This document shows, one piece after another, positions 830 through 4,893 of a stretch of 64,000 bases of DNA (its first letter is position 1; every line of letters starts with the position of its first letter). The notes beneath the pieces are model-generated. The model worked only from the letters and a program-made list of their open reading frames with translations. It searched no databases and was not told the origin of the DNA. Source of the stretch: Cetobacterium sp. ZOR0034 (GTDB lineage: Bacteria; Fusobacteriota; Fusobacteriia; Fusobacteriales; Fusobacteriaceae); NCBI RefSeq assembly GCF_000799075.1, contig NZ_JTLI01000002.1:1-64000 (forward strand), in the 5' to 3' direction. The position numbers and the translations under genes are program-made.

Positions 830-2404
830 TTACCACACATTGTGTGCATTTGAATTAAATCCAGATGATGTCGAGTAATACTTCGCATCTATTGGTTTGT
901 TTTCGTGTACTAATATCAAACCTTTAGTTGATTTAACTGCTCCAGTCGCTAAATCATTTTCATCAAGATTATTATAAACCTGACTTTGTGTACTATCTAA
1001 AATATGAAAGCCTGATTTACCGTATCTATTTCTTAAAATATCTTTTGCGGCATAGGTTCTTGCTGCAACAGCTTGAACTTTTAAAGCTTCCATCCCAAAG
1101 CTTTTTGGCATTTCACTTGGTACAACTTGTAATAAGTAATCTTCAATATCTATTTCATTTATTAGATTTAATCTTGTTCCACCCTTAGCTAATCTTATTT
1201 CAAAATTACCTCTATAAGTTGGATGAGTATAATTTTTTACATTTCTTTTTATATTTGTTAAAGATACCATTCTATTAGATGAGATAGATATATAGTTTTT
1301 AGTTTTCAACCTTAATTTCCCAGCAACTATTACATGAGTAAATCCATCTTTAGTTATAAAATCTACAGCTGTTCTTGGATTTAGATTTACATTTCCATCT
1401 TTACTTCTAATTTTTATCGACCCTAGAGAATACATTGATATCTTTGTATGATCTATCGTAGAAAATCCTGTTGTCATTATTCCTACTCTTAATTTTTCAT
1501 TAATTCCACTCACTGATCTTATGCTTTTTAATTTAGTATCAGCATAATATCTATCTAAAACCTTTTTATAAGAATAACCTTTATTCTTAGTTAAATCCAT
1601 TGCAGACCACTGTGGAACCCCAGCTCCATGTCCAAATCCACCACCATATATATTATATGCTCCATTACTAGATCTTTCAATAGATAAGAATGCAGATGGA
1701 AGAAGAGATGGATTTCTCGAAATCGGTTTATCTAAATAAGATAAACTTCCACCTTTAGCACCATATATATTTATTTGAGATGTCGTACTACTTTTGCTAA
1801 CCCCTAAGACACTTCTCACATTCCCTTCTTTTGCTACAATATATTGACCTCTAGTCCCTTTTATCATCAATTTTATAACTAATCCAGATTTTCCTCTTTG
1901 AAGTACTCTTATATCTGTAACTTCACCAATTGGATTTAATGGTAATGGTTTTGATATCCACTGACCATTAGAGTGAGTAAGTACCTCTTTTGGTCTTCTA
2001 TTTGCTAATGATACTAAGTTCTTATTTAAAATATTGCTCATCTCTTTTTTACTTAAGCTTAATTTCCATCTCCAATAACTAGAAGCATCACCATTTCCTC
2101 TTGCTTTAGTATTTTTATAAAATGCTAAAAATTCAGCTTCTGAATATACTTTAAAAGGAGTCTTTGGAGATTCCATATCATTTACATATTTTAAATATGG
2201 TATCGAATTCGCTATTGGGAGATTATCTTTCTTGTGAATTCCGTATAAATCTACTCTATCTCCTTTTAAATTGCTTCCTTTACTTGATGCTTTTCCACTT
2301 TCAACTCGTTTATAATAATCCTGCTTCGAAGTACTACTACATCCCGCAAGAGCTAATAAGATAAAACTTGTACTTATTATTGTTTTCATTTTAGTCATTT
2401 TCAT
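830..2404 (-). CDS. SpoIID/LytB-type lipoprotein with circularly permuted domain order
   Basis: A 524-residue lipoprotein: a hydrophobic leader ends in the lipobox LAGC (Cys22). The rest matches SpoIID/LytB peptidoglycan glycosylases, which remove stem peptides or cleave glycan strands, but in swapped order. Residues 69-295 resemble the usual second half: PYLKYVND at 69-76, then GFGHGAGVPQW around His259, then a GYSYKKVLDRYY stretch. Residues 300-524 resemble the usual first half: LRVGI, YRGNFEI, then YLLQVVPSEMP with the probable catalytic Glu431, EALKVQAVAARTYA and YYSTSSGFNSNAHNVW. The protein stops at NVW, the point that PYL normally follows closely. The frame is intact, so this looks like a true circular permutation. 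The start overlaps the kdsB stop (TAATG). The fold assignment is firm; the cellular role is unknown. Confidence 0.8.
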   Translation of the reverse strand: MKMTKMKTIISTSFILLALAGCSSTSKQDYYKRVESGKASSKGSNLKGDRVDLYGIHKKDNLPIANSIPYLKYVNDMESPKTPFKVYSEAEFLAFYKNTKARGNGDASSYWRWKLSLSKKEMSNILNKNLVSLANRRPKEVLTHSNGQWISKPLPLNPIGEVTDIRVLQRGKSGLVIKLMIKGTRGQYIVAKEGNVRSVLGVSKSSTTSQINIYGAKGGSLSYLDKPISRNPSLLPSAFLSIERSSNGAYNIYGGGFGHGAGVPQWSAMDLTKNKGYSYKKVLDRYYADTKLKSIRSVSGINEKLRVGIMTTGFSTIDHTKISMYSLGSIKIRSKDGNVNLNPRTAVDFITKDGFTHVIVAGKLRLKTKNYISISSNRMVSLTNIKRNVKNYTHPTYRGNFEIRLAKGGTRLNLINEIDIEDYLLQVVPSEMPKSFGMEALKVQAVAARTYAAKDILRNRYGKSGFHILDSTQSQVYNNLDENDLATGAVKSTKGLILVHENKPIDAKYYSTSSGFNSNAHNVW

Positions 2405-3141
2405 TATATTTTAATTCCCTTTTCTAAAATATATTTTCTAACTCTTTCTAACTCTTCAGCTGTATCAACTCCTATGATCTCATAAGGTGTTTCTAAAACT
2501 TTTATTCTATAACCATTTTCTAAAACTCTCAACTGCTCTAAAGATTCTGAATTTTCTAAAGGTGTACTTTCTAACTTCGAATACTCTAGTACAAATTCTC
2601 TTTTATATCCATATATTCCTACATGTTTAAAATATATGTCTAAATTTTCATTTCTAGGATATGGAATTACACTTCTAGAAAAATAAATTGCATAATCTTT
2701 TTTATCAGTAATAACTTTAACAAAATTCGGATTTTCTATATCCTCTTTTTTATTTAATTTATGTTTTAATGTTGCCATTTTCAAATCATTTTCCTGTTTA
2801 AAAACCTCTATTAAAGAGTTTATCATATCTGCTTCAATCAATGGTTCATCACCTTGAATATTTATTACTACATCATAATCTGTTATCTTATCACAAACCT
2901 CTGCTATTCTACTAGTTCCATTTAAGTGGTTAGTATCTGTCATAATTACATCCCCACCAAAATTTTTTACTACATCAAAAACTTCTTGAGAATCTGTTGC
3001 TACAACAACTCTATCCAAATTTGATTTCATAGCTCTTTTATAAACCCATTCTATCATTGTATGACCACAAATATCCTTTAATGGCTTTCTTGGTAATCTT
3101 GTTGACTCATATCTTGCTGGAATTACTCCTAAAAACTTCAT
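2404..3141 (-). CDS. kdsB: 3-deoxy-manno-octulosonate cytidylyltransferase
   Basis: This enzyme makes CMP-Kdo from CTP and Kdo, activating the inner-core sugar of LPS in the cytoplasm. The protein starts MKFLGVIPARYESTRLPRKPL, which carries the family's nucleotide-binding motif. VVATDSQEV and INIQGDEPLI follow, as in KdsB. I place the start at the ATG at 3141, which has GGAGG seven bases upstream; the in-frame start 21 bases earlier has no ribosome site. At about 245 residues the length is normal. The stop overlaps the start of the SpoIID-like lipoprotein gene, so the two are co-transcribed. Its presence implies a Kdo-containing LPS. Confidence 0.95.
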   Translation of the reverse strand: MKFLGVIPARYESTRLPRKPLKDICGHTMIEWVYKRAMKSNLDRVVVATDSQEVFDVVKNFGGDVIMTDTNHLNGTSRIAEVCDKITDYDVVINIQGDEPLIEADMINSLIEVFKQENDLKMATLKHKLNKKEDIENPNFVKVITDKKDYAIYFSRSVIPYPRNENLDIYFKHVGIYGYKREFVLEYSKLESTPLENSESLEQLRVLENGYRIKVLETPYEIIGVDTAEELERVRKYILEKGIKI

Positions 3142-3180
3142 TTTACAACCTCCAAAATTCAATGTATAATAAGATTATAC
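3142..3180 (+). promoter_or_regulatory. Divergent promoter region with shared palindromic -10
   Basis: For the plus-strand phosphatase gene there is TTTACA (3142-3147), a 17-bp spacer and TATAAT (3165-3170). The -10 lies in a perfect palindrome, GTATAAT-AAG-ATTATAC (3164-3180), whose other arm reads TATAAT on the minus strand and can serve kdsB, although its -35 is poor. The plus-strand -35 sits against the kdsB start codon. Confidence 0.6.
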
Positions 3181-3885: not shown

Positions 3886-3933
3886 AGTACTAAACTGTAT
3901 ATTGTTATCTATTTTAATCAGGGGGTGAATTTT

Positions 3934-4893
3934 TTGGGAAATAGCAAATTTAATGTCAATATAAAAGTAATGGGCATTGGTGGCGGTGGTATAAATGCTC
4001 TTGATGAGATTGTAAATTCTGATATTGATGAAGTTACTTTTTTTGCACTTAATACCGATCTTCAAGATTTAAATAGCTCCAAAACTCCTCATAAAATTCA
4101 ACTTGGACCAACGACAACAAAAGGTCTAGGTTGTGGAGGAAATTTGGAACTAGGTGAAAAAGCAACAAAAGAAAGCCTCTCATTTATAAAAAATATTCTT
4201 CGAGGAACAGACTTCTTATTTTTAACATCTACAATGGGTGGTGGAACTGGAAGTGCAGCAACATCTCTAATTGCTAAAATTGCTAAAGAGATGAATATTC
4301 TAACTGTTGCTATTGTCACTAAACCTTTTTCTTTTGAAGGAAAAAGGCGAATGAAAATTGCAGAAATAGGGATAAAAAATCTTACTCCATTTGTTGATTC
4401 ACTTATTGTTATTCCCAATGATAAACTTTTAGATAACTCAAAACCAAATATAACAGTTCAAGAAGCCTTTAAAAAAAGTAACCATGTTCTTCTCACTGCA
4501 GTAAAAGGAATGACGGATTTAATGCTAGCAAAAGGACTTATCAACCTAGATTTTGCTGACATAAAATCTCTTCTTTTAAATTCTGGAGAAGCTATCTTAG
4601 GTTTTGGTGAAGGCTCTGGAGAAAATAGAGCGTATAAAGCTGCTATGGCTGCCGTTGACTCTTCTCTTTTTGAAAGGACAATGACAGGAGCAACAAAACT
4701 TCTAGTTAATATTGTTGGCCCTAAAGATTTAAATTTAATTGAATCTAGTATAATTGTTGACACTATGAAGCAAGAGTGTGCCGCTGACATAGATGACGTT
4801 CTATTTGGAGTTTCCATTGATGATAACTCTTTAGATACTTTAAAAGTTATTTTAGTAGCTAATTCATTTTCAAATATAAAAAAAGGACTTTAA
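3934..4893 (+). CDS. FtsZ-like tubulin-family GTPase lacking the C-terminal tail
   Basis: About 319 residues covering the whole FtsZ GTPase core: the T1 loop IGGGG, FFALNTDLQDL, the T4 tubulin signature GGGTGSA near residue 100, the VTKPFSFEG segment, VDSLIVIPNDKLL and the T7 loop NLDFAD near residue 204. The usual last glycine of T4 (GGGTG[ST]G) is alanine. The protein ends at VILVANSFSNIKKGL, where FtsZ normally continues into a linker and the conserved peptide that binds FtsA. I chose the TTG at 3934 as start: GGGGGTGA is five bases upstream, and the GTG at 3925 lies inside that ribosome site. No ftsA or ftsQ is adjacent, so it may be a second, specialised FtsZ; it could still be the main one. 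Confidence 0.85.
   Translation: MGNSKFNVNIKVMGIGGGGINALDEIVNSDIDEVTFFALNTDLQDLNSSKTPHKIQLGPTTTKGLGCGGNLELGEKATKESLSFIKNILRGTDFLFLTSTMGGGTGSAATSLIAKIAKEMNILTVAIVTKPFSFEGKRRMKIAEIGIKNLTPFVDSLIVIPNDKLLDNSKPNITVQEAFKKSNHVLLTAVKGMTDLMLAKGLINLDFADIKSLLLNSGEAILGFGEGSGENRAYKAAMAAVDSSLFERTMTGATKLLVNIVGPKDLNLIESSIIVDTMKQECAADIDDVLFGVSIDDNSLDTLKVILVANSFSNIKKGL

Follow-up and report, generated by a model that had tools for sequence, protein, structure and literature searches.

A circularly permuted SpoIID/LytB gene encoding a putative lipoprotein beside kdsB in Fusobacterium and Cetobacterium

We analysed a window of 64,000 nucleotides from Cetobacterium sp. ZOR0034, near the start of which a SpoIID/LytB gene with exchanged domain halves directly follows kdsB. 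The features of this locus are given below by their positions in the window.

830 to 2404, minus strand: circularly permuted SpoIID/LytB gene, putative lipoprotein of 524 amino acids (open reading frame, TIGR02669 in two swapped stretches, rotation scan)
2339 to 2404, minus strand: predicted lipoprotein signal sequence (residues 1-22) with the lipobox LAGC, whose Cys22 does not vary among 19 aligned permuted homologues
2201 to 2338, minus strand: probably flexible tether, residues 23-68, of low confidence in the AlphaFold model
1508 to 2200, minus strand: former C-terminal half, moved to the front (residues 69-299), running from PYLKYVND through YGGGFGHGAGVPQW (His259) to GYSYKKVLDRYYADTKL
1208 to 1507, minus strand: former N-terminal beta subdomain (residues 300-399; LRVGI ... 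TYRG)
833 to 1207, minus strand: former N-terminal catalytic half, moved to the end (residues 400-524), with PF08486 at 410-500 and Glu431
2404 to 3162, minus strand: kdsB (CMP-Kdo synthetase), immediately upstream of the permuted gene, a neighbour kept throughout the permuted clade

The permuted reading frame is intact and PF08486 is its sole Pfam match. Its new C-terminus, ...AHNVW, is the end of the old catalytic half. The stop codon of kdsB overlaps the start of the permuted gene (TAATG at 2404), which suggests that the gene is translationally coupled to this LPS gene. A lipoprotein anchor had been proposed in the preliminary description, and the comparison of homologues agreed with it: an invariant Cys follows the signal peptide within a lipobox, as expected of a bacterial lipoprotein, and lipidation at Cys22 is predicted. 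With a simple pattern, the lipobox was recognised in 41 of 48 permuted sequences. Also near the permuted gene, on the plus strand (3925-4893), is a second FtsZ of 322 amino acids with Tubulin and FtsZ_C domains, apparently without the usual C-terminal tail; a longer FtsZ is encoded on the same contig (C2:110725-111714).

The order of the halves was assessed with TIGR02669, the NCBIfam model of SpoIID/LytB (270 positions, curated cut-off 83.3 bits). The native sequence matched in two stretches (164.1 bits), the better of which placed residues 414-524 on profile positions 2-111; when residues 1-298 were searched alone, residues 158-293 matched positions 150-269. Reordering the protein (299-524 followed by 69-298) merged these into a single stretch over positions 2-269 with 172.7 bits, so that the cut-off was exceeded in either order. 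The family model has the N half before the C half, while 46 proteins from 44 genomes carry C then N, and we therefore regard the protein as a permuted variant and not as a standard TIGR02669 member. Scores against TIGR02870, the sporulation-specific SpoIID model, were 112.5 bits (native) and 119.8 bits (reordered); these lie below the equivalog cut-off of 234.75 and rule out identity with the sporulation equivalog.

As a second approach, the mature sequence was rotated in 3-residue steps and each rotation was scored against an independent profile built from canonical clostridial proteins. The optimum was a cut at residues 297-300, which gave one match over positions 3-454 of 455 with 441.3 bits, against 255.9 bits for the best single match of the unrotated protein. 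For canonical clostridial controls the gain on rotation was 0 bits, while three further permuted homologues gained 176-192 bits at the equivalent point. Together with the TIGR02669 reordering, this bears out the circular permutation that had been proposed from the sequence. The catalytic half of canonical clostridial relatives finishes with ...(E/D)VW, and a variable loop, usually of the form FPGxxxPYL, connects it to the C-terminal half. The permuted proteins stop exactly at VW, and behind the leader their front half opens with PYL or a motif like it, placing the break where it was first described, between NVW and PYLKYVND. A linker of some ten residues (KSIRSVSGINEKLRVGI in the protein from the window) connects the old termini. 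The SpoIID/LytB domain is thus in swapped order with a single precise breakpoint.

We surveyed homologues across Fusobacteriota and found a TIGR02669 match in 77 of 98 genomes, 44 of them permuted and 33 canonical by match order. The permuted genomes belong to eight genera (g1-g6, g11 and g12), all within the family of the window, and form one clade on the rpoB tree (SH-aLRT 99), where a single change of state suffices. Since the permuted copies are one clade in the gene tree as well, one origin is enough to explain them. The dN/dS of the window gene was 0.09-0.24 (about 0.09 against near relatives), so the gene is under purifying selection; it is shared by ancestry and conserved throughout the clade. 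Among named records, an end-to-end permuted protein was found in Fusobacterium animalis and F. vincentii. Nearly all permuted copies have the final Trp; an additional paralog and a broken frame are the exceptions. In two genomes of g11 a further permuted paralog lies apart from kdsB (L083:3596-5203 and L085:3812-5311), and the one in L083 has lost the conserved Trp. In genome G051 the permuted frame (L088:4098-5624) ends early near its 3' end (...DKPADA), which is either a true truncation or a sequencing error.

The canonical SpoIID of Fusobacteriota sits in an mltG-(radical SAM)-spoIID-tilS-ftsH cluster. In the window genome this ancestral site (L239:3897-7940) holds tightly packed mltG, radical SAM, tilS and ftsH genes and is empty of spoIID, with a gap of 63 nt between the radical SAM gene and tilS where relatives carry it. 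The permuted gene is at a different locus, directly after kdsB, which adjoins every primary permuted copy that has upstream sequence. Trees built from the reordered domain gathered the permuted proteins into one clade (99/99) that grouped with long canonical clostridial proteins, separate from canonical Fusobacteriota SpoIID. Forcing the permuted and canonical Fusobacteriota proteins together was 46 log units worse (AU p = 0.0225), a moderate rejection, and support for the exact sister group was low (bootstrap 38-39 in places). Permuted and clostridial proteins have in common a long C-half (~230 aa), whereas the C-halves of canonical Fusobacteriota match over ~100-135 aa only, at ~100 bits. 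Canonical-order relatives with the full B-N-C architecture are present in Clostridia.

The preliminary description had implied that a resident enzyme was rearranged into a lipoprotein. Both the closeness to the long clostridial proteins and the locus, with the resident gene missing from its ancestral site, speak against this. Tree placement, AU test and long C-half make transfer of a clostridial-type gene, its permutation and loss of the resident gene the best reading, for which we infer the direction of transfer and the site of permutation from sequence comparison. It is unlikely that the resident spoIID was instead permuted and moved beside kdsB without horizontal transfer, the clostridial similarity then reflecting fast change in other Fusobacteriota. 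Such a history would fit the absence of the resident gene from exactly those lineages that have the permuted one, and the AU p value is not extreme, but it has to contend with the strong separation in the gene tree, the difference in C-half length and the different loci.

We looked for the permuted order elsewhere and found none among ~820 draws of Clostridia and Bacillota genomes at the cut-offs used. Searches of two other phyla gave no matches at all and carry no weight on this point. Clostridial ORFs of 900-1400 aa (G306, G309, G310), considered as tandem intermediates, contain one B-N-C unit each, flanked by unrelated sequence, and ORFs of ~500 aa from G577, G615 and G679, about as long as the permuted protein, proved canonical in order on checking. 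Matches in viral contigs were weak and mainly to one half. Some clostridial and Paenibacillus SpoIID/LytB proteins (L135, L136, L141, L279), 900-1400 aa or more in length, contain sizeable additional regions; the Paenibacillus protein bears the annotation family 10 glycosylhydrolase.

Under clostridial-type acquisition, a canonical spoIID/lytB gene with beta subdomain, catalytic half and C-terminal half would have entered the Fusobacterium-Cetobacterium stem and come to sit behind kdsB. The simplest route to its rearrangement would be an in-frame tandem duplication, after which the front of the first copy and the back of the second disappeared. Duplication and trimming, as proposed earlier, are plausible, but no tandem-duplicate intermediate was seen among the sampled Clostridia and Bacillota. 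A short linker would join the old ends, with the new ends opening in the loop between ...VW and ...PYL, and the resident canonical spoIID of the mltG-tilS operon would have been lost. The product would be exported and lipidated at Cys22, about 45 flexible residues tethering it to the old C-terminal half, and both halves would still build a single active site from Glu431 and the GxGHGxG...Q loop.

An AlphaFold model of the permuted protein, built on 19 permuted homologues, had a pLDDT of 82.3 and a pTM of 0.80, with low confidence at residues 1-9 and 14-64 (pLDDT <50 over 14-64). Its secondary-structure elements map one-to-one onto a canonical clostridial relative with two blocks exchanged: in their succession of strands and helices, residues 112-294 correspond to 423-593 of the canonical protein, and residues 304-523 to 153-369. 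The only significant Foldseek matches of the canonical relative's model in the PDB were the SpoIID structures 5i1t (E 2e-13; TM 0.76 by target length) and 4rwr. The permuted model gave no significant Foldseek match to the PDB. Foldseek aligns residues in sequence order, and this order dependence may be the reason for the null result.

The swapped order might also arise by domain shuffling, in which two halves that fold separately were joined the other way round and function independently of each other or in trans. We think this improbable. The break does fall in the loop between the PF08486 part and the remainder, and PF08486 alone is a 97-aa unit. TIGR02669 nevertheless treats both halves as one domain, and rotation restores one continuous match. 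Both halves hold invariant residues and are present in nearly every full-length homologue examined, and the pTM of the whole protein points the same way.

Glu431 aligns with the catalytic Glu101 of Clostridioides difficile SpoIID. An alanine mutant of Glu101 was inactive on amidase-treated peptidoglycan and did not complement sporulation (PMC6221140). Glu431, His259, the GxGHGxG...Q motif and many neighbouring residues are invariant in 19 diverse permuted homologues. The window genome has a gene for at least one clear N-acetylmuramoyl-L-alanine amidase, which could make the substrate of the permuted enzyme. From the Glu431/Glu101 match, the invariant motifs and the encoded amidase, the protein is expected to be a lytic transglycosylase acting on denuded glycan. 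It is predicted to be lipid-anchored and probably septal, and would cleave glycan strands that amidases have already stripped of peptides.

There is a slim chance that the protein is enzymatically dead and acts instead as a lipoprotein that binds peptidoglycan or forms a scaffold, a role that the altered anchor geometry predicted from the lipobox could accommodate. The invariance of Glu431 and GxGHGxG...Q across the 19 homologues and the strong purifying selection argue for retained activity, as does the fact that, except in g11, the permuted gene is the only SpoIID-family gene of these genomes. An assembly rearrangement or frameshift artefact has practically no chance of explaining the swapped order and is ruled out, together with coincidence, by the identical order and break in 44 independently assembled genomes of eight genera and in the named F. 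animalis record.

Taken as a whole, we consider it likely that the window gene encodes a natural circular permutant, derived by acquisition of a clostridial-type gene, its rearrangement and loss of the resident copy, which would now act as a lipid-anchored lytic transglycosylase. More tentatively, replacement of the resident enzyme in the Fusobacterium-Cetobacterium ancestor might have changed how the septal wall is processed. It is possible, though we would not favour it, that the new anchor geometry, with the lipid on the old C-terminal half and the catalytic half free, altered where or how septal peptidoglycan is cut.

Circular permutations that occur in nature seldom combine a dated single origin with canonical sister sequences and a new architecture that is conserved. 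The present example has become fixed across a whole genus group, to which Fusobacterium species of the nucleatum complex (F. animalis, F. vincentii) belong. It offers a clean test of how well a cell-wall enzyme tolerates moved termini, and of whether anchor position governs access to the wall. The SpoIID/LytB family is well known; in the literature searched, mostly journals available without subscription, we found no report of a permuted SpoIID, nor any of SpoIID together with Fusobacterium or circular permutation. Domain-based annotation masks the swapped order, the gene being deposited just as a SpoIID/LytB domain protein. The same permuted protein in F. animalis (WP_320949739.1), which also adjoins kdsB, is annotated only as 'SpoIID/LytB domain-containing protein', with the permutation unmentioned.

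Both halves of the permuted protein are found in known SpoIID/LytB proteins (TIGR02669, PF08486; SpoIID of Bacillus and C. difficile; PDB 4rwr, 5i1t, 5txu), with which it has in common the catalytic Glu, the GxGHGxGxxQ motif and, after rotation, full profile coverage. Unlike the SpoIID of Bacillus and C. difficile, it has reversed halves and a putative lipoprotein anchor, and the Cys/His zinc motif of C. difficile SpoIID was not seen in its sequence. Its hosts are not known for spore formation. The canonical SpoIID of other Fusobacteriota belongs to the same family and phylum, and its gene is missing where the permuted one occurs; it differs in its canonical order, shorter C-half, other locus and separate clade. 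Nearest in the tree are the long canonical SpoIID/LytB proteins of Clostridia (for example L144, L140, L138 and the Caloramator protein L004), which have the beta subdomain and long C-half of the permuted protein but retain the canonical order, with an N-terminal membrane anchor and ~150-500 residues in front.
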